The notes beneath the pieces were generated by a model, which had not been told where the DNA came from, searched no databases, and was given only the letters and a program-made list of their open reading frames with translations. Below are positions 975 through 24,039 of a stretch of 25,051 nt of DNA, piece after piece; the first letter of the stretch is position 1, and the number at the start of each line of letters is the position of its first letter. The DNA comes from a virus, in IMG/VR virus record IMGVR_UViG_3300035698_009707, positions 1 through 25,051 of that record; one strand, 5' to 3'. The position numbers and the translations under genes were made by a program.

Positions 975-1034
975 AACCTCGCTTTCTTGGATACCCTGTC
1001 CACTAAATGTACTATCAAAAGAGAGTGTGAAGCA

Positions 1035-1454
1035 ATGAAGAAGTTTTTGATGCCAATCATGCTATTGCTAATTTTACTGTTTCTTCAAGGAACTAAGTAC
1101 GGCTTGCAGTATGCAATACCTGATATTCTTCCCCCTGCTAGCTCAATTACAATGGCCGTTATTATCTATGAATCAGAAATAGATGACGCCTTGGCTTACC
1201 CCGAAGAGCATGAGACGATGATGGGAAAGACTTCACAGGCCCTTCGTAAGGCAGACAAGTGGAGACAGTATGATAAAGATCATGTACCGTCAAAGTGGAA
1301 CATCTTAGCAGTAGAGGCCAAGGCAGGGCAGAGTGGAAGGAAGTGGCAGCCGTGGTTAGGTCTGTATCACGATAATAGGTTGACAGAGAACCAGTCAGTA
1401 CCAAAGGGTGATGTGGAGTTGAAACAACTGATTGAAGAGAATGGGGGATATTGA
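1035..1454 (+). CDS. Small secreted or membrane-anchored protein
   Basis: The product has 139 residues. ATG 1035 is chosen over an in-frame ATG at 987 because it gives a signal-like N-terminus: MKKF, then a leucine-rich hydrophobic run at residues 5-17, then polar sequence. Another hydrophobic stretch lies at residues 33-45. The C-terminal half is soluble (EHETMMGKTSQALRKADKW, then PWLGLYHDNRLTENQSVP). The protein ends LKQLIEENGGY, and this end plus the following start region is repeated about 500 bases downstream. No family recognised; location probably outside the cytoplasmic membrane or anchored in it. Confidence 0.7.
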   Translation: MKKFLMPIMLLLILLFLQGTKYGLQYAIPDILPPASSITMAVIIYESEIDDALAYPEEHETMMGKTSQALRKADKWRQYDKDHVPSKWNILAVEAKAGQSGRKWQPWLGLYHDNRLTENQSVPKGDVELKQLIEENGGY

Positions 1455-2127: not shown

Positions 2128-4014
2128 ATGCCTGAGCTATTCTTAACACCCGAAAACGCATACGAGCACACTGGTTGTGGTCTCGATAGGTTTTGGTATA
2201 ACGGCGAGCGTATTCTGAATGCCATGCCTCAGGAGCTGATAGAGGTGGAGCGTGTGAAACGGGAGATGGAGGGCAGGCTTGTATCCCGTCCACTCGAAGA
2301 GGCCGTCCAAGTAATCCCACGAAGTGAGTGGGTTGATCGAATCAAGGAGAAGGATGCTAACGGTTCATGGATGCGAAACGTCAACGATCAAGCAGGTGTG
2401 CCTGAGTTAGATCAGGATGGCCTCGGTTTCTGTAGTTCAGCTGATACAGAGGTTCTAACAGAAAAGGGTTGGACCCCGTGGCCGGATTACAATTGGAAAG
2501 ACTTGCTTGGTACGGTGAATCCATCGAGCCATAAGCTTGAGTTCCAGTTGCCATATCAAAAGCACGTCTATCCCTATGACGGTGAGATGATCTACAGTAC
2601 AAACAGAAGACTTGATTTTGGTGTCACACCAGATCATCGCATGTATGTGCGAAAATGGGATGGACGATTGCGGACGCTATCGAGCCAGTACGAGTTTGTG
2701 CGTGCTGGTAATCTTGGTTGGTACACAGGTCTTCTTCACGCGCCGAGTGGCTTCATTGGAACAGAGTTAAAACGTGTCGGTGTCGAGGGGGATCGTGAGT
2801 ATGACGGCGATGATTTCATGGCAATGCTCGGAATTATCTGTGCAGATGGATATGCTGGTGGTGCAGAGTTCACAATGAAGCGGGTTAGTTTTTGTTGTTT
2901 TCGTGACGACAGATATGAAGCAGCCTCGTCTTTGGCTAGACGCACTGGGTTTAATGAACGGCCAAGCCGTCGTGGTGTGTGGAACAGGAACAATGAGTCG
3001 TCATACGCTTTAGCCGAATGGATTAGAGCTAATTGCTATTACGGTGGAAAATTAAGATCACCTAATAAGTGTGTGCCTGATATCGTGAAGGTCGCCAGTG
3101 AGCGACAAATCAAAGTGTTTTTGGAATACTTTGGTGACAGATTGCATGACGCTGATGGGACGGGCACCCAGTTTTTCAGCAGCAGCAAGCGAATGATTGA
3201 CGATTTGCAAGAGCTGCACCTGCGAATAGGAATGCGTGGGTCAATCTGCCATCGAGGATCTCGTACAGCCGACCGAAAGATACCAGGGACGGATAGGGTA
3301 CAAGTGATTCAGAGCAGTGGAGAATACACGTTGGTTGTCAGCCAAACCGATCGGCTTCACATTGATCGGAAGAAGCATATTGAAACAGATCATTACAAAG
3401 GATTGGTCTATTGTGCTGCCGTGCCTAATGGAACGTTGGTGACACGTCGGAATGGTTCTGTGCTTGTGTCCGGCAACTGTCACGCATACGGAACTGTGGG
3501 GGCGGCGATGACGGCTAGGGCCATCACTGGGCTACCTCATATTCTTCTATCGCCAGAGTCAATTGGAGGCCCTGTGACGAATTGGCGGAACAGAGGAGCC
3601 AATCCAGACGATGACTTGGAGGTGCTGGTTAAGCGGGGTGCCTGCCGTATGGACATGATGGATTGTGCCAATTCGCTTAATCCAAACAAGTGGGATCCTG
3701 ATTGGAAAGAGGATGCAAAGAACCACACGGCAGTCGAGGTATTCCATCTAAGTAGCCGGGAGATGTTCGAGCAGCAGATGACCTGTGTATTGTTAAACAT
3801 TCCGACGGGTGTGTGGTTCAATTGGTGGGGTCATCACGTTCAAGGTGCACTAGCGGTGATGTATAAGGATGGGGATTTCTGGTTGTGTGCTCGTAATTCA
3901 TGGCGACCCTATGGAGAGAATGGATACTTCTGGATGAAAGAGGGCTACGGTAAGGGTAAGGCAACGGCCAGTGGTGCCCATGCCATTCGTGTAATGAAAC
4001 CAAGCGAGGTGTAA
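2128..4014 (+). CDS. Papain-like (C1 family) cysteine peptidase with an in-frame intein
   Basis: The 628-residue precursor has extein residues 1-101, an intein at 102-450, and extein 451-628; splicing would leave 279 residues. The joined extein reads QDGLGFCHAY, which aligns position by position with the papain active-site QGxCGSCWAF, making Cys451 the nucleophile and Gln96 the oxyanion-hole Gln. The general base is probably His569 (WWGHHV; His570 is an alternative) and the orienting Asn is Asn590 in ARNSW, followed by GENGYFWM as in papains. No signal peptide is visible. The N-terminal 80 residues could act as a short propeptide. ATG 2128 follows GAAGAGG. Substrate unknown; as a phage gene it may cut host envelope or virion proteins. 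The family call is firm; the biological role is not known. Confidence 0.88.
   Translation: MPELFLTPENAYEHTGCGLDRFWYNGERILNAMPQELIEVERVKREMEGRLVSRPLEEAVQVIPRSEWVDRIKEKDANGSWMRNVNDQAGVPELDQDGLGFCSSADTEVLTEKGWTPWPDYNWKDLLGTVNPSSHKLEFQLPYQKHVYPYDGEMIYSTNRRLDFGVTPDHRMYVRKWDGRLRTLSSQYEFVRAGNLGWYTGLLHAPSGFIGTELKRVGVEGDREYDGDDFMAMLGIICADGYAGGAEFTMKRVSFCCFRDDRYEAASSLARRTGFNERPSRRGVWNRNNESSYALAEWIRANCYYGGKLRSPNKCVPDIVKVASERQIKVFLEYFGDRLHDADGTGTQFFSSSKRMIDDLQELHLRIGMRGSICHRGSRTADRKIPGTDRVQVIQSSGEYTLVVSQTDRLHIDRKKHIETDHYKGLVYCAAVPNGTLVTRRNGSVLVSGNCHAYGTVGAAMTARAITGLPHILLSPESIGGPVTNWRNRGANPDDDLEVLVKRGACRMDMMDCANSLNPNKWDPDWKEDAKNHTAVEVFHLSSREMFEQQMTCVLLNIPTGVWFNWWGHHVQGALAVMYKDGDFWLCARNSWRPYGENGYFWMKEGYGKGKATASGAHAIRVMKPSEV
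2431..3477 (+). mobile_element. Intein with LAGLIDADG homing endonuclease
   Basis: This encodes a 349-residue intein. Block A starts at Cys102 (CSSADTEVLTEKGW). Block B contains T167-P-D-H170. Two LAGLIDADG motifs follow: LGIICADGY (Asp240) and YFGDRLHDADG (Asp343), both with their acidic residues present. Block F/G reads YKGLVYCAAVPNGTLVTRRN and ends V-S-G-N450 before Cys451. The penultimate residue is Gly rather than the usual His, a known variant. The complete motif set predicts an active splicing element and possibly an active endonuclease. The insertion point is immediately before the catalytic Cys of the host peptidase. Confidence 0.93.
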
Positions 4015-4977: not shown

Positions 4978-6042
4978 ATGAAACGATCAATCATCCCACT
5001 ATCGTTGCTAGCACTATTGGTCGGACTACGGTTGATGGCGATGGTGTCGGTGCATGATAAAATCATTATTGCCAAACCAGAAGTATGTGTTGAGGCAGCA
5101 CTCCTGTCTCCGTTAGGTGCAGACGTGAGCGGGGACCGTTTAGTAGGCGGCGAGACCGTAGCACCTTTACAATCTATTGTGATGGCCCACACAGACACAA
5201 TAGGGGTGTTTGGTGTACCCACCAAAATGGAGATGGGGGTTATTATGGACAGGATCGTGAGTGTGGTGGCTGACACGCTGATTTCTTATAGCAATTCCGT
5301 TTGCACCATTTCAGGAAAGGAAATCGAAGATGAAGATTATGAAATGGAAGCCCCAAAAAAGCCAATCACAGAAGAAGAAACCATCATCGGTAAACAAATG
5401 CAGCTCGTCGGTTACACGGCTGATTGGTGTGCTGGTTGCCAGAAGATGAAACCTATCTGGGATCAACTTGCGTCCGAGGGGTTCAAGGTGTCGATAGCTG
5501 ACATCGACAATCCTCCTGTTTGGATGGAGGATTACAGACCACTACAAATACCGCTGACAGCCGTGTTTGACGGTTCGGAGTTTATAGCACAATGGATTGG
5601 ACCTGTGGAGGTTAACGAGTTACGGAATGCATTGCGGTATGGTGAGGGCGTACTTCCGAAGTCATTAGGAAGGGTGCTTGAAACCCCAAAGCACATGATG
5701 CTCTGCAGTGCCGCTAAAGAGTCCTCCGATCTGCAGGCGGCAAGGAATAAGCAGGGCCACCTTGATTGGGATAATCGTAAATCAAAGCTATTGTTAACCA
5801 GTGGGTATAGCCGGATCGAAGAAATCTGTGCAGAGAGTTGGCCTGAGCAGAGGGATTGCTATGACGAAGCGTTGTGGACTGAAGCGTTCGATTGCTGGAG
5901 CCAATCCCCAGGGCATTGGAGTGTTGCGAACCGTGTTTGGAGAGCTTACGGCAGGGCTAGGTCACAGGGTGAAAACGGTGTTTGGTATATGGTGATCTTG
6001 GTAGCTAGTAATGAGCGTTCCCCGATTGTAGGGGTTAAATGA
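4978..6042 (+). CDS. Secreted thioredoxin-like protein with C-terminal CAP-like region
   Basis: The product has 354 residues. MKRSIIPLSLLALLVGLRLMA is a signal-peptide-like start. Residues about 135-225 form a thioredoxin fold: YTADWCAGC with the redox pair Cys151/Cys154, then MKPIWDQL, and a probable cis-Pro region (LQIPLTAVFDG). Residues about 255-345 resemble the end of a CAP/SCP (PR-1-like) domain: FDCWSQSPGHWSVAN with His313, then GRARSQGENGVWYMVILVAS. The thioredoxin call is firm; the CAP call rests on motif resemblance, and other CAP histidines are not obvious. A disulphide role outside the cytoplasm would fit the extra Cys in the second domain. The binding site before ATG 4978 is weak (GAAG). 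Confidence 0.75.
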   Translation: MKRSIIPLSLLALLVGLRLMAMVSVHDKIIIAKPEVCVEAALLSPLGADVSGDRLVGGETVAPLQSIVMAHTDTIGVFGVPTKMEMGVIMDRIVSVVADTLISYSNSVCTISGKEIEDEDYEMEAPKKPITEEETIIGKQMQLVGYTADWCAGCQKMKPIWDQLASEGFKVSIADIDNPPVWMEDYRPLQIPLTAVFDGSEFIAQWIGPVEVNELRNALRYGEGVLPKSLGRVLETPKHMMLCSAAKESSDLQAARNKQGHLDWDNRKSKLLLTSGYSRIEEICAESWPEQRDCYDEALWTEAFDCWSQSPGHWSVANRVWRAYGRARSQGENGVWYMVILVASNERSPIVGVK

Positions 6043-6099
6043 AAAGCTAAGGGTATAATTCCGTTTACAAAAGGGCATTAGAAAGGGAAAGGTGATACG

Positions 6100-6225
6100 A
6101 TGGGAATAGAGATAGTAAAGGTTGTGGTTCGGATACGAGACAGTAGTTCGTCAGATGATGAGAAACAGTCAGATGATGAGAAACAGTCAGATGATGAGAA
6201 ACAGTCATCTGTTAAAGACGAATGA
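6100..6225 (+). CDS. Tiny protein with SDDEKQ repeats
   Basis: The product has 41 residues: a beta-like start (MGIEIVKVVVRIRDSSS), then three perfect copies of Ser-Asp-Asp-Glu-Lys-Gln and a charged end. ATG 6100 follows AGGGAAAGG with normal spacing. The repeat is an exact 18-base tandem, so length variants by slippage are expected. Function unknown; the tail would be disordered and acidic. Confidence 0.5.
   Translation: MGIEIVKVVVRIRDSSSSDDEKQSDDEKQSDDEKQSSVKDE
6151..6204 (+). repeat. Perfect 18-base tandem repeat, three copies
   Basis: TCAGATGATGAGAAACAG is repeated at 6151-6168, 6169-6186 and 6187-6204, in frame with the small gene at 6100. The unit is a whole number of codons, so copy changes keep the frame. 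Confidence 0.95.
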
Positions 6226-6310
6226 AAATGCTAACCCAAGGAGAAGGGCGATGCGAGAATTGACAAGTCATAATCTGTAGATGTGTGACTCTAACCAGAG
6301 GAGGTGTGAA

Positions 6311-6682
6311 GTGACTAGGAAAGTGATTCTATTGTTCGTGTGTATCGTTGCGATGTTGATTGGGACGACGGCGATGGCTGCTGTTTCGGTCGAGATTTCT
6401 GATGTGCCAGCCTGTCCAGAGATATGCATCATTGGGGTTCCAGCGGTGATCGTTGATGGGATCGATGCGTGTGGTGAGGAGGCGGTGCATGCAAGGCGTA
6501 TCGTTACGGCGGGAAAGCGAATCGTAGGTATTGGCAAAGGCACAATTAAAGTCGTGGCCAAAACCGTTGCCGTTCCCGTCCGTATTGCAAAGAGCATTGG
6601 CAGTCGAATTGTTACCAGAGTGAAAGGACGTGAGACACGTATTGTGGTGCGTATCCTTCACAGGGGTAGGTGCTGCCATTAA
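6311..6682 (+). CDS. Small secreted basic Cys-containing protein
   Basis: The product has 123 residues. GTG 6311 is chosen because GAGGAGGTG lies 5-12 bases upstream and it gives a clean signal peptide (TRKVILLFVCIVAMLIGTTAMA with AMA as probable cleavage motif); an ATG at 6281 would add ten polar residues. The mature part has PACPEICIIG, then a long basic Val/Ile/Lys-rich stretch (AGKRIVGIGKGTIKVVAKTV) and ends RILHRGRCCH. Small exported Arg-rich proteins ending in paired Cys are familiar from planctomycete genomes, though their role is unknown to me. It could act at the host envelope. Confidence 0.65.
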   Translation: MTRKVILLFVCIVAMLIGTTAMAAVSVEISDVPACPEICIIGVPAVIVDGIDACGEEAVHARRIVTAGKRIVGIGKGTIKVVAKTVAVPVRIAKSIGSRIVTRVKGRETRIVVRILHRGRCCH

Positions 6683-6699
6683 GTTGAGTTAGCAGTGGT

Positions 6700-6762
6700 G
6701 TCGGGAGGATGGCCCCCCTTCCGACGTTAATGAGCTGCGGGGGATGGATCCCCTGTCCCCCG
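6700..6762 (+). promoter_or_regulatory. Two adjacent GC-rich hairpins before a membrane-protein gene
   Basis: The first stem is 6700-6708 with 6717-6725 (9 pairs, one G-T). The second is 6738-6744 with 6756-6762 (CGGGGGA/TCCCCCG), with a competing inner form GGGGA/TCCCC at 6740-6753. A CTCTTTT run follows at 6767-6772. They could be a weak terminator or an attenuator in the leader of the gene at 6789. Confidence 0.45.
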
Positions 6763-6788
6763 TAGCCTCTTTTAGAGAAGAGATTGTA

Positions 6789-7175
6789 ATGGCGAAGCAA
6801 GCAGCGAAAAAGGTTGCAGAATACTGGGAGGGCTGGCAGGCATGTCAGATTCGTCAGACTTGCAATTATGACAAGGACGAGGCAGGGATGCGTGATCATT
6901 GGGCCGAAGGATTTGCAAATGCTGTAGCTGAACAGCGAGCCGGAAAGGTTTGGTGGAAGAGCAACACAATTCGCACAGCACTGATTTGCCTGACGGCTGG
7001 AATCGTAGTTTTGCTCTATGGTCGATTCAGTGGTAATGGTGCTGGTAATGAGATCATGTCGGCAGGTGGCGGTATGAGCGTTGGGGCAATACTGAGCATG
7101 GGTTTGCGGAAGATGATAAACGACTCTCCAGTGCATTGGAGTGGTGGGAGTCAACAGTGGTACTCGGGCCAATAG
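6789..7175 (+). CDS. Small membrane protein (possibly holin-like)
   Basis: The product has 128 residues. The first 55 are charged and helical (AAKKVAEYWEGWQACQIRQTC), then a membrane span at about residues 62-80 (IRTALICLTAGIVVLLYG), a Gly-rich second hydrophobic stretch (NEIMSAGGGMSVGAILSMG) and a polar tail. ATG 6789 has GAAGAG about 8 bases upstream. The next gene also encodes a small membrane protein. Consecutive small membrane proteins in a phage suggest holin or antiholin roles, but this is context only. Confidence 0.6.
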   Translation: MAKQAAKKVAEYWEGWQACQIRQTCNYDKDEAGMRDHWAEGFANAVAEQRAGKVWWKSNTIRTALICLTAGIVVLLYGRFSGNGAGNEIMSAGGGMSVGAILSMGLRKMINDSPVHWSGGSQQWYSGQ

Positions 7176-7843: not shown

Positions 7844-8061
7844 TGGCGGAATTCGTACAACTTGATGGTGACGTAGACGTATTGGTCCTTCGTGGTCTGT
7901 GTAAGAAAAATGGTATTGTTTCCCCTTTGCATCAATCTGAATTATGGGGTGCTGTCTCCAGAGTGCTGGACAAGCTGAGTAGTGCAGAAAAGGAAATCGA
8001 ATGCCTCCGCCAGATGGCAAGGAAAGTCAACCATGCGACGAAATGTGATGTAGGAGATTAA
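7843..8061 (+). CDS. Small helical hypothetical protein
   Basis: The product has 72 residues, with a beta-like start (AEFVQLDGDVDVLVLRG) and a helix near the end with heptad spacing (RVLDKLSSAEKEIECLRQMARKV), possibly a short coiled coil. It is coupled to the previous gene by a TGATG overlap, with GGTGAGGAG as binding site. Function unknown. Confidence 0.6.
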   Translation: MAEFVQLDGDVDVLVLRGLCKKNGIVSPLHQSELWGAVSRVLDKLSSAEKEIECLRQMARKVNHATKCDVGD

Positions 8062-8063
8062 GA

Positions 8064-8177
8064 ATGCAGGTATTATTGTTGCATGGGCAGGATCGAAGGC
8101 GAGTGGCGTGGAATACTGATGTAAACGATTATACCAGCCAAACAATAACCCTTAGATTTGAGAGGATTGTATTATGA
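8064..8177 (+). CDS. Very small beta-rich protein
   Basis: This is a 37-residue frame beginning MQVLLLHGQDRRRVAWNTD. AGGAG lies about 8 bases before ATG 8064, which starts two bases after the previous stop, and its stop overlaps the next start (ATGA at 8174-8177). The tight coupling on both sides is the main evidence that it is translated. Confidence 0.5.
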   Translation: MQVLLLHGQDRRRVAWNTDVNDYTSQTITLRFERIVL

Positions 8178-8455
8178 CATTTTCAGAAGTGAAAATGAAC
8201 TTGGATTTGTTGGCCGAAACGATTGTGGCTGAGAAGGGCCGCGTCAATTCTGTAAAGGCAAAGCTGGAAGCAGCATCAACGACATTGGATGGGCTGCCAA
8301 CGCAGTATGGTGATACGCTCACGGCGATCACTGATCTGCTTGTGGCGAATCCAGCGGACACTGCTGCCCTGGGGGCTGCTGCTGAAAAGGATTTTCTAAT
8401 TGCGGATTTCCTTGCTCTGAAGGCGTCGGTCGATACGGCGATTGCCGCGTTGTAA
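8174..8455 (+). CDS. Small helical protein upstream of the fibre genes
   Basis: The product has 93 residues, nearly all helical, Ala/Leu-rich (MNLDLLAETIVAEKGRVNSVKAKL; DTAALGAAAEKDFLIADFLALKA), consistent with a helical bundle or coiled coil. GAGAGGA precedes the start. Its position next to the fibre genes suggests a minor virion or assembly protein, which is inference. Confidence 0.65.
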   Translation: MTFSEVKMNLDLLAETIVAEKGRVNSVKAKLEAASTTLDGLPTQYGDTLTAITDLLVANPADTAALGAAAEKDFLIADFLALKASVDTAIAAL

Positions 8456-9749: not shown

Positions 9750-10673
9750 ATGGCAATCACAGCAGAAACTACCGCCGACGCTAATATTTATGCAGGGGCG
9801 ACAATCTACGACCAAACCGCTGCCGCCGACGGCGAGTGGGAACTGGATATACGTGTTGGTGGTGTTGATGATTTGCATACAGATGCCGCTACATTGACTT
9901 TGAGCGTTACCGTCAGTAATGCGTTAGGCACGTTTACGGTCAACGGCGGTCCTACCTACGTGGCAAAAGCTGCGGGGGTCTTGTTGGTAGCCCTGCGAAC
10001 TGGCCCCGTTTTCGTCGGTAACGGGTATGATATTACCGCAACGCTGTCAAGCGATAATAGCAATGATACGCAAGTCGATGTAACCGTCACGCCACGGCTG
10101 ATGAAGGCTGACGTTGAAACGATTAAGACGCAAGCCGTGACGTGTGGGGCTGGTGTGACCATTCGGGCTGATGTTGGGGCAGCAGCAGCCCCAGGTGCCT
10201 CTAATGGAATGCTGATTGCCGGCAGCAACGAAGCTACTACGTTTGCCACCCTGACGGTTACGGGTGCTGTAGGTTTTGGCTCGACATTTATTGTTACTGG
10301 AGCCACTACATTTACTGGAGCCATATCAGCCTCAGCAGGCATCGACGTAGTGAACGCCGCTGGTCCTGCCATGAGCTTGGTTGGTAGCACCTATGGTTTG
10401 TATGTCGAAGCAACAGGAAGCCTGGGTACTGGACTGTTTGCGTGTGGGAACGCGGTCGGCGGTTACGGAATCCAAGCCCAGGCATCAAATCCCGGCGGAT
10501 CGGGCATGACGATCTCCGGTTCGTCCTACGATCTAAACGCCAACATCACAGGGAATATCACTGGAAATCTGTCGGGGTCTGTGAATGTGGGATTATGGCT
10601 TGGTGAAACTCCACCGACGCCTCGCACTCCTGGCATTCCCAAAACCGAACCCGTGATGCGGGGGACGATGTAA
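9750..10673 (+). CDS. Tail-fibre or baseplate-type protein
   Basis: The product has 307 residues. The first 125 form a regular beta domain (GEWELDIRVGG, ATLTLSVTVSN, DVTVTPRL) like upper-baseplate or fibre N-domains. The middle is Ala/Thr/Gly-rich with repeated strand pairs (TLTVTGAVGFGS, TFIVTGATTFTGAI). The end has ITGNITGNLSGSVN, a short-repeat stem also found in the gene at 12088. GGAG precedes ATG 9750; the stop overlaps the next ATG (TAATG). It probably anchors or forms part of the adsorption apparatus. Confidence 0.65.
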   Translation: MAITAETTADANIYAGATIYDQTAAADGEWELDIRVGGVDDLHTDAATLTLSVTVSNALGTFTVNGGPTYVAKAAGVLLVALRTGPVFVGNGYDITATLSSDNSNDTQVDVTVTPRLMKADVETIKTQAVTCGAGVTIRADVGAAAAPGASNGMLIAGSNEATTFATLTVTGAVGFGSTFIVTGATTFTGAISASAGIDVVNAAGPAMSLVGSTYGLYVEATGSLGTGLFACGNAVGGYGIQAQASNPGGSGMTISGSSYDLNANITGNITGNLSGSVNVGLWLGETPPTPRTPGIPKTEPVMRGTM

Positions 10674-12088
10674 TGATTCGCAATGTGAACCCGCTCGATC
10701 AATACGACCGGCTGGCCTACCCGCTGCCGTCGGATGATCCGTGGCCAATCGGTACCGTGGCCGACGGTCAGGCAGGCGAGACATGGGCCGCTACCAACGG
10801 CTCGATCGCCGCCGATACGTCGATTTTCCACGACGGTTTGCAGTCGCAAAAGCTGACCGGCAACGCGGGGGCAGTGGCGACGGCCTATTGCACACTGCCA
10901 TTCTCGATCGACGTTCGCGGCGGGATTGGCCTGGCGTTGCGCGTGGTCGACATCACCAAGTTGGACTCGATCCGATTGACGATCAGCGAGGACGACGGAA
11001 CGAACGGCTACAAGGCGAGCTTTTACGAGAAGGTGACCGTCGCGCCGTCTTTGCCGCGAACTTTCCCAACCGGATCGGCCTATCAGTACCCAAACTACCA
11101 CGTCTTGAGCGATAACACGTGGGCATTGTGTTGGGACACGCGAAAACGCCATCAAAGTGTTGGCTCGCCAACGGCGTGGGGCACCGGCGCCGGCGGCTCG
11201 GTCGATGAGTATCCTGTTACTTACGTGACGCTGGAAGTGGACGCCGTGGCCGGCCAGTCGCCCGAGGTCTGGATCGGCGGAATCTATCGGCAGCAATGGT
11301 CGAAGGCGCGGATCATGCTGATCTTCGACGACATGCCTGTGACGACTTACACCGTAGCTTATCCCGACCTGAAAAAACGAGGGTGGCGAGCAACGGGAGC
11401 CGTTGTTCCTACATGGATCGGCACGTACTCCGCTGGCTACGGCATGGGTTTCTGTGACGCAACCCAGCTTCAAACTCTTTATGACGATGGTTGGGCGTTG
11501 TGCAACCACGGCTATGCCCATGTCAATGGGTCACGCTCAGTAACGCCCGCCACATTAGCGGCCGACATCGCCCAAGGCAAGCGATACATGATGTCGCAAG
11601 GCTGGTTTCGCGGCAGCAACTTTTTCGTTTGTCCCGGCAACATGGGCGATACCACCACTGGCGACCTGTACTCAACCTTGCAAGGTTTTCATGCTGGAGC
11701 GAGGGCGCACGTTCATCGTTCAATCAATGAGCCGACGGGTGAAGATTCCAGAAGGTGCAAAGCCATCGGCATCGCCGACGCCGGGATGTTTCCATTCCCG
11801 AGTGATCCATTCAATTGGCCGTACATCGAACTCAATAGCACGACCTACAGCGGAGCAGTCGCGGCGTTGGCCGATGCCGTGCGGGATCGCCATGTCGTCA
11901 TGCCGTTTATTCACGGAATCTACGAAAGCCCAGACGCATGGTCGATCACCCCGGCCGAATGGACCGCATTTCTGGCCGTGCTGGATGCGCACCACGCAGC
12001 GGGCACGGTCGAGTTTGCAACCTACGACGACGTGCTTAAAGCGACATATAGAAAACATCCGTGGGTCTGGGAATCGAGGTTATCGTAA
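10673..12088 (+). CDS. Polysaccharide deacetylase-like (NodB/CE4) tail protein
   Basis: The product has 471 residues. Residues 1-205 are beta-rich and carbohydrate-binding-like. From about 212 a NodB-type domain begins: MLIFDD gives the base Asp219 and metal-ligand Asp220; NHGYAHVN gives His279 and His283 in the H-x3-H arrangement; a late FIHGIYE and a C-terminal LDAHHAAGTVEFATYDDV fit the end of the barrel. This predicts metal-dependent removal of acetyl groups from a host surface polysaccharide. It is coupled by TAATG to genes on both sides and lies between fibre genes, so a tail-borne activity is likely. The DNA is clearly more GC-rich than the head genes, a sign of separate origin. Confidence 0.78.
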   Translation: MIRNVNPLDQYDRLAYPLPSDDPWPIGTVADGQAGETWAATNGSIAADTSIFHDGLQSQKLTGNAGAVATAYCTLPFSIDVRGGIGLALRVVDITKLDSIRLTISEDDGTNGYKASFYEKVTVAPSLPRTFPTGSAYQYPNYHVLSDNTWALCWDTRKRHQSVGSPTAWGTGAGGSVDEYPVTYVTLEVDAVAGQSPEVWIGGIYRQQWSKARIMLIFDDMPVTTYTVAYPDLKKRGWRATGAVVPTWIGTYSAGYGMGFCDATQLQTLYDDGWALCNHGYAHVNGSRSVTPATLAADIAQGKRYMMSQGWFRGSNFFVCPGNMGDTTTGDLYSTLQGFHAGARAHVHRSINEPTGEDSRRCKAIGIADAGMFPFPSDPFNWPYIELNSTTYSGAVAALADAVRDRHVVMPFIHGIYESPDAWSITPAEWTAFLAVLDAHHAAGTVEFATYDDVLKATYRKHPWVWESRLS

Positions 12089-21430: not shown

Positions 21431-22072
21431 ATGAGGAATGTAACTTTTTATCTTGGACCGGCCAGTGGTTTGTCAGAGCGTTATCTGGTTATTACTCGCA
21501 TGCGTCATGCGGGCGATGATTCAGCAATCACCCCATCTGTAGAAACAAGGCTAAATGGTGCAGTTGAGATTTGCACACGGGCCTTGGCAGACGACACAAT
21601 TTGGGAGGCGGTGCTGATTGATACTCGGACATCTGGAGAGGTTAGTGTACCGGACGTTCTCCCGTTCCATACGGGGTCATTACAGTTTCCAGGACCAAAG
21701 ACACAAGACCGTTTGTCGATTCTGTCGATGGAAGACGAGAGTAGTTCTAGTTCGAGTATCTCGACTTCTAGTTCTAGTCAGAGCAGTTCTAGCAGTTCTA
21801 GTTCGAGTATCTCAACGTCAAGCTCCAGTCAGAGCAATTCGAGTAGTTCGAGTATTTCCACATCGAGTAGCTCAAGTAGCATCTCTACATCGAGTATCTC
21901 GACTAGCTCAAGTAGCATCTCGACGTCCAGTTCTAGCCAGAGTAGCATCTCTACTTCGAGTATCTCGACTTCTAGTTCTAGTCAGAGCAGTTCAAGTTCT
22001 AGCATCTCAACGTCAAGTGTTAGTTCTAGCAGCAGCAGCAGCATGAGTAGCCAGTCTTCACAGTCAGAATAG
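21431..22072 (+). CDS. Virion-type protein with long Ser-rich tail
   Basis: The product has 213 residues. Residues 1-102 form a beta-like domain (NVTFYLGPASGLSERYLVITRM; DTIWEAVLIDTRTSGEV). Residues 104-212 are almost only Ser with Thr, Ile and Gln in recurrent SISTSSSSQSSSS units. GGAG precedes ATG 21431. The tail would be disordered or heavily modified. The N-domain looks like small surface or fibre-linker proteins of phages. Both Ser codon families (AGY and TCN) are mixed. Confidence 0.65.
   Translation: MRNVTFYLGPASGLSERYLVITRMRHAGDDSAITPSVETRLNGAVEICTRALADDTIWEAVLIDTRTSGEVSVPDVLPFHTGSLQFPGPKTQDRLSILSMEDESSSSSSISTSSSSQSSSSSSSSSISTSSSSQSNSSSSSISTSSSSSSISTSSISTSSSSISTSSSSQSSISTSSISTSSSSQSSSSSSISTSSVSSSSSSSMSSQSSQSE
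21740..22069 (+). repeat. Degenerate Ser-codon repeat tract
   Basis: About 330 bases of near-repeats built from AGTTCTAGTTCGAGTATCTC-type blocks; for example a block of about 25 bases around 21765-21789 recurs near 21966-21990. It encodes the Ser-rich tail, and recombination between blocks would change its length in frame. Confidence 0.85.
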
Positions 22073-23019: not shown

Positions 23020-24039
23020 ATGGTGTTCAAGCACGTTCTTACTTCTTCCACAAGGGATCGGGATGGTGATATCCTACACAGTGATGGGGCACATCCAGAT
23101 CCGAATATGCTGCTGCTATGGCAGCATGTTCACACGCTTCCGATTGGTAAGATGCTCAAAATTGAAGGTCAAGACCGTGATAGCCTGAAGGTCGTCAGTT
23201 GTATTGTGGACATGAATGAGTTGAGCCATGATGCAGCCGTGATGATCGACAACGGTATGGGACGATTCTCGCATGGGTTCAAGGCCCTGGAGTTTGTTGA
23301 GATCAAACGGGCAGGGGAAACTGCTCCACAAGGATTCGATGTTACGAAGTTCGAGATCATGGAGGAGTCACTCGTTAGTGTCCCAGCCAATATTGATGCC
23401 CAGACCGAAGAGGTTCTGCTATCGCTGGTGGAAGGCGGTAAGTTGACTAGTCCCATTATGAAGCGGGTTGGTAAGGGTATTCGACACATGATGCGAAAAC
23501 AGGTTCCCGTCAGTATTCAGTATCGTGAAAATGATGGAGGAATTGAGCGTGAGTTGACTTGCAATACAGTAGCCGAGTTGGAAGAGGCCGCCAAGGCCGT
23601 ATCGATAGGAGGACGAAAAGATGAGAACGAGTGCAGAAGTAGAAGCACAACGTCAGAAGGAGGAGGAAAAGAACAAGACAACGGTAAGCCATCAGAAAAA
23701 GCCGATGGCGACAATGATGAAGGACAAGAGGGCAAGGCCGAAGGTAAGAAAATGACTTGTCCTGATTGCGAGTATGTGGGCAATCCTAAGTCTGATGGAA
23801 TGTGTCCTAAGTGTGGTGCCAAGATGGAGGCAGCGAAAGAGCCTAAAGAGGAAGAGAAAGAAGTTTACGACTGTGAATGCTTGGAGTGTGGGCATCAAGT
23901 GAGCTCTGAAAAGCATTGTATGGAAATTAAATGCCCGAAGTGTGGTGGAGAGATGCGAAGAGCGGTAGGCCCGGACCAGGGAAATCAACTGAATGGATTG
24001 ATGCCAAGCCTTATCCCAATGAGCATGCCGCCCGACTAG
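23020..24039 (+). CDS. Prohead maturation protease with two C-terminal zinc ribbons
   Basis: The product is 339 residues from ATG 23020. The protease domain (1-150) has HVLTSSTRDRDGDIL, LLLWQHVHTLPIGKM with probable catalytic His36, and EIMEESLVSVPAN with Ser117, matching S78/XkdF-type head maturation proteases that trim capsid and scaffold. An acidic linker (195-243) leads to zinc ribbons with Cys247/250/262/265 and Cys287/290/305/308, unusual in this family. ATG 23020 has no binding site, and the frame upstream (open from 22903) looks coding but holds no ATG, GTG or TTG. The last 17 residues are an out-of-frame reading of the downstream module. Confidence 0.82.
   Translation: MVFKHVLTSSTRDRDGDILHSDGAHPDPNMLLLWQHVHTLPIGKMLKIEGQDRDSLKVVSCIVDMNELSHDAAVMIDNGMGRFSHGFKALEFVEIKRAGETAPQGFDVTKFEIMEESLVSVPANIDAQTEEVLLSLVEGGKLTSPIMKRVGKGIRHMMRKQVPVSIQYRENDGGIERELTCNTVAELEEAAKAVSIGGRKDENECRSRSTTSEGGGKEQDNGKPSEKADGDNDEGQEGKAEGKKMTCPDCEYVGNPKSDGMCPKCGAKMEAAKEPKEEEKEVYDCECLECGHQVSSEKHCMEIKCPKCGGEMRRAVGPDQGNQLNGLMPSLIPMSMPPD

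Follow-up and report, generated by a model that had tools for sequence, protein, structure and literature searches.

The open reading frame at positions 2128-4014 (plus strand) of the window, the whole 25,051-base virus record analysed here, encodes a 628-residue protein that is a papain-family (C1) peptidase split by an intein of class 1 type, 349 residues long, that contains a LAGLIDADG homing-endonuclease domain. The window comes from a tailed phage, since it carries genes for portal, head-morphogenesis and head-tail adaptor proteins and for an S78-type prohead protease. We think it very probable that this C1 peptidase of a tailed phage is interrupted by a mobile intein that would splice itself out of the protein and spread by homing at a conserved site.

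Using both outer segments of the ORF, joined as a single query, we identified a 40-kb virus contig (L002) encoding at 6001-6843 a 280-residue protein that lacks the insert and is 89% identical to the window protein across its whole 279-residue extein. The DNA alignment of the two breaks exactly at the insert (2128-2428 of the window matches 6001-6304 of L002, and 3478-4014 matches 6307-6843), and the DNA flanking the two peptidase genes is 71-80% identical over much of its length. Because the intein and the C-extein both begin with TGT, the DNA comparison has a register ambiguity of one codon; the rules of splicing (a Cys at the start, an Asn at the end and a +1 Cys) place the insert at 2431-3477 and make Cys451 the +1 residue (Table 1). 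Its 349 codons begin with CSSADTEVLT and end with LVSGN, directly ahead of Cys451. An insert that is 53-64% identical occurs at the same residue in six virus contigs, including the window, and its presence there is therefore not due to chance. The proposal of the earlier note that residues 102-450 form an intein is thus borne out by the empty site in L002, the six same-site alleles, the splicing blocks and the homology to phage inteins described below.

Table 1. Features of the interrupted peptidase gene and of the small protein encoded upstream (window positions unless another contig is named)
Feature	Coordinates	Strand	Evidence
N-extein, residues 1-101	2128..2430	+	Ends DQDGLGF; aligned with 18 intein-free homologues
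Oxyanion-hole Gln96	2413-2415	+	Within the N-extein; Gln invariant in 24/24
Intein, 349 residues (precursor 102-450), with embedded LAGLIDADG endonuclease domain	2431..3477	+	L002 empty site; five further same-site alleles; phage-intein similarity; LAGLIDADG_3 in 6/6; PI-SceI fold match
Intein Cys1 codon, block A nucleophile	2431..2433	+	Invariant in 12/12 aligned inteins
Block B T-P-D-H, intein Thr66 and His69	2626..2637	+	Thr and His invariant in 12/12
Asp139, acidic residue of LAGLIDADG motif 1 (CADGY)	2845..2847	+	Invariant in six peptidase-site inteins; Glu in six distant inteins
Asp236, acidic residue of LAGLIDADG motif 2, aligned to GDG of related inteins	3136..3138	+	Invariant in 12/12
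Intein blocks F and G (Y-x-G-x-VYC...TRRNGSVLVSGN), terminal Asn349	3394..3477	+	Tyr322, Gly324, Val326, Cys328, Arg339 and Asn349 invariant in 12/12
C-extein, residues 451-628 plus stop	3478..4014	+	Full-length homology to L002 and other family members
Cys451, +1 splicing residue and predicted catalytic nucleophile of the peptidase	3478..3480	+	Cys invariant in 24/24 family members
Catalytic His, spliced His220 (precursor residue 569)	3832..3834	+	Invariant in 24/24
Catalytic Asn, spliced Asn241 (precursor residue 590), in RNSW	3895..3897	+	Invariant in 24/24
Upstream small protein	window 1032-1454; L003 2976-3470; L004 5222-5701; L011 5409-5831; L012 5480-5926; L015 5369-5848; L024 5393-5872; others		

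We aligned the six peptidase-site inteins with six more distant phage inteins, whose hosts are, by inspection, portal, helicase-like and ATPase proteins. Every one of the six peptidase-site copies has Cys1, Thr and His in block B, Asn at its end and Cys at +1. The class 1 features found are thus an empty site, the Cys1, Asn349 and +1 Cys ends, a block B TxxH and homology to recognised inteins. Two features that are common, though not universal, in this class are missing, here as in the other aligned phage inteins: the usual penultimate His is replaced by Gly or Ser, and the block F Asp by Cys (Cys328) in all 12 sequences. The loss of the block F Asp is not a defining failure, since this residue is conserved in about 60% of inteins according to a review (PMC7765530). 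Both LAGLIDADG motifs can be recognised by their acidic residues, Asp139 and Asp236, which are invariant in the six inteins; motif 2 is divergent, the Gly after Asp236 being replaced by Arg or Gln in the peptidase-site clade. With a penultimate Gly, a block F Cys and a divergent motif 2, neither splicing nor cutting need be efficient. Class 3 inteins have no N-terminal nucleophile and carry a W-C-T set, consisting of a Trp after the block B His, a block F Cys and a block G Thr. We ruled this class out, as Cys1 is present and the block B His is followed by Arg or Gln rather than Trp.

The insert is similar to 214 phage records, in many cases from end to end. In these searches, its close relatives (53-64%) were all in C1 peptidases and those at about 25% were in other hosts. 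Over the whole 349 residues it is about 27% identical to inteins in the nucleotidyltransferases of mycobacteriophages, BeanWater among them, and of Escherichia virus TH47 (E 2e-13 and 1e-19; PMC5050341). These inteins have the same block pattern and the same ends. The hosts differ, however: that of the BeanWater intein is annotated as a nucleotidyltransferase and that of TH47 is one by inspection, whereas the intein studied here is in a C1 peptidase. A structure model of the intein was of low confidence (pLDDT 59) and too weak for residue-level claims. Its best match in the PDB was the yeast VMA1 intein PI-SceI (E 6e-5), followed by Hint domains; PI-SceI has the same Hint plus LAGLIDADG architecture, but is only 10% identical in sequence and has a vacuolar ATPase as host. 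Contig L025, which carries the third peptidase-site allele, also has a second, distant intein (about 23%) at 10380-11384 in what is by inspection an RNA-polymerase-beta-like protein. A protein resembling the latter is encoded on L039 (3001-6747) and apparently contains two inteins, the first being a mini-intein without an endonuclease.

We scanned 2.9 million virus contigs, together with genome contigs, and after removal of duplicate records obtained 24 distinct members of the peptidase family, the window counted among them. The insert is absent from 18 of these and present in six (the window, L004, L025, L026, L027 and L029); one insert-free member, L003, comes from a Planctomycetota MAG. All 24 have the complete papain tetrad of Gln, Cys, His and Asn, in papain order and without variation. 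A profile of the 18 insert-free members matched chymopapain (1.3e-13), falcipain and cathepsin K in the PDB (E 1e-13 to 1e-12), and 13 of the 18 matched Pfam Peptidase_C1 individually (best 2.8e-11). An AlphaFold2 model of the L002 protein (pLDDT 88, pTM 0.88) has fold matches to cathepsins and xylellain. A helix (residues 103-118) starts at the catalytic Cys in this model, which would therefore put the intein at a loop-helix boundary. Proteolytic activity is predicted from the tetrad and from the likeness in profile and fold. The family has in common with papain-family C1 enzymes (chymopapain, cathepsin K, falcipain, xylellain) a profile similarity of about 1e-13, the fold and the Gln-Cys-His-Asn tetrad, but its members are only 15-20% identical to them, are phage-encoded and have an N-terminal segment and gene neighbourhood of their own, and six of them contain an intein.

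These data uphold the assignment of the host to the papain-like peptidases made in the earlier note. The profile comparison suggested there succeeded at the level of the family, with its match to C1 peptidases and with Pfam LAGLIDADG_3 in all six intein alleles (best 2.2e-5), and fell short for the window sequence alone, which was below the cut-off both for Peptidase_C1 (E 0.3-0.5, near the C-terminus) and for LAGLIDADG_3 (E 0.0023, mid-protein, 18.6 vs. 22.5 bits). Because single-sequence profile matches are weak, the C1 and LAGLIDADG assignments rest on the relatives. Among 294 genomes of the phylum of the Planctomycetota MAG, three, including the MAG itself, have a relative of the peptidase; none of the 294 has this intein in a peptidase and one gave a weak intein match. 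Contig L009 has a second, truncated copy of the peptidase at 7910-8350, in which similarity stops just past the catalytic Cys region (NQDGLGYCWVYGSTSC).

In most loci, the peptidase gene is immediately preceded by a gene for a small protein whose N-terminus carries a membrane anchor or signal and which, in the majority of copies, has a conserved PW motif. This small protein falls into two clusters, one with 15 loci and another with the window, L002 and L006, and a similar segment is apparently fused to the peptidase in L007. A profile of this protein had no match in the PDB; it may be a functional partner of the peptidase. Downstream of the peptidase, intein-bearing and intein-free contigs alike encode a protein of a single cluster (window 4978-6042, L002 7015-8376, L025 6627-6938), the window copy of which has a Pfam Thioredoxin domain. 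Elsewhere in the window, the S78-type prohead protease (23020-24039) has a C-terminal zinc-ribbon-like region, an ORF at 21431-22072 has a long serine-rich low-complexity tail, and one at 10673-12088 resembles a polysaccharide deacetylase by inspection, though its PHROG match is weak (E 0.23) and of unknown function.

The invariance of Cys451 in all 24 members agrees with the earlier claim that the intein lies directly before the catalytic Cys and that its +1 residue is the protease nucleophile. The predicted excision would follow translation and proceed by an N-S shift at Cys1, transfer to the +1 Cys451, cyclisation of Asn450 and an S-N shift, so that residues 1-101 are fused to 451-628 to give the active-site line DQDGLGF-C-HAYG. 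The oxyanion-hole Gln is six residues ahead of the nucleophile once spliced and 355 away in the precursor, a gap across which a normal active site should not be able to form; the unspliced precursor is thus plausibly without peptidase activity. The endonuclease, for its part, is predicted to cleave alleles that lack the intein, close to the codon for the catalytic Cys, and would in this way allow the intein to spread by homing. A site whose sequence is constrained by catalysis would offer a dependable target from which imprecise deletion is hard, which may account for its use. Inteins are well known to favour conserved, functional sites, and this bias has been explained by constancy of the target and difficulty of loss (PMC2814812; PMC5050341).

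The relationships among the alleles are consistent with such movement. The six inteins are 53-64% identical pairwise, compared to 24-48% for their exteins. In a tree of the exteins of the 24 peptidases, accounting for the distribution of the intein takes five changes, of which well-supported branches force at least four (the L029 host is very divergent and its placement unsure), and the nearest relative of the window peptidase has no intein. Since the inteins are more alike than their exteins and four to five changes are needed on the tree, the pattern points to a mobile, homing element that has moved between very divergent peptidases. Between inteins, the first, second and third codon positions are about 67, 72 and 35% identical, respectively, and the low value at third positions indicates that the intein protein is under purifying selection. 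The codon for the +1 Cys is TGT in all six intein-bearing genes vs. 7 of the 18 intein-free genes (Fisher p 0.013, members treated as independent despite their kinship); this excess is no more than suggestive of homing-site recognition.

The earlier note suggested that splicing could be a timed activation step for a toxic protease. The intein would then act like a propeptide, holding a harmful enzyme inert until a signal, for example redox in view of the Cys-dependent chemistry, triggered splicing. Its position at the catalytic Cys should make activity depend on splicing, and redox- or metal-controlled conditional splicing is documented in other inteins (PMC7765530, PMC6195587). The block F Cys present in all 12 aligned inteins and the thioredoxin-domain protein encoded about 1 kb downstream (4978-6042) can be added as circumstantial hints of redox control. 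However, the thioredoxin gene also adjoins the intein-free L002 peptidase, and 18 of the 24 family members, including this 89% identical homologue, lack the intein. Close relatives keep the same protein with its tetrad intact and no intein, there is no sign that the protease is toxic, and the intein, sporadic in distribution, moves among divergent alleles and keeps its endonuclease domain. We therefore consider regulated activation unlikely and depart from the earlier note on this point. The data point to a selfish element at a conserved site, which would explain everything seen, with no call for regulation.

The penultimate Gly or Ser, the block F Cys and the divergent LAGLIDADG motif 2 could also be read as signs of a decayed intein that no longer splices, leaving the gene effectively dead or the unspliced protein with another role. 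This is quite unlikely given that there are no stops or frameshifts, that Cys1, Thr66, His69, Asn349 and the +1 Cys are common to the six alleles, that variation is far greater at third codon positions than at the other two, and that the same block F and G features are found in the six phage inteins of other hosts. Hint-fold domains that are not inteins exist and can process proteins, and BIL domains were among the weaker fold matches, but a constitutive regulatory or processing domain of this type was rejected in view of the intein-free homologues. Searching for such homologues in other phages was a proposal of the earlier note, and the 18 that were found, together with the sporadic distribution, the LAGLIDADG domain and the Asn plus +1 Cys, make a constitutive 349-residue domain highly improbable. 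An unrelated intein misjoined during assembly might be suspected in a contig from an uncultivated virus; six different contigs share this in-frame junction and its residue, which brings the probability of such a chimera close to nil, and we rejected it on the strength of these independent copies.

That proteases can host inteins, and that inteins usually insert at active sites, is known already. Lon is one such protease host, serine-type and not of the C1 fold. The chloroplast ClpP intein (PMC5784728) likewise interrupts a protease gene, but ClpP is also serine-type and not of the C1 fold. Our literature searches, which covered open-access papers, found no C1 peptidase reported as an intein host, in line with the unfamiliarity of such a host remarked on previously. 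What we describe thus looks like a new host and a new site for a known kind of element. The use of one cysteine in two catalytic roles, in splicing and as the protease nucleophile, is uncommon, and the open-access papers searched held no precedent for it.

With this family, C1 peptidases join the list of proteins invaded by inteins. The analysis also brings to light a family of phage C1 peptidases, of which the window extein has no PHROG profile match and the L002 protein, used as query, no relative among 50,697 annotated phage records. As splicing and proteolysis are predicted to share their nucleophile, the splicing reaction itself should build the active site. A single residue that is occupied in six alleles and empty in 18 provides a ready system for the study of homing at a catalytic site, and for asking whether splicing can serve as a natural zymogen step.
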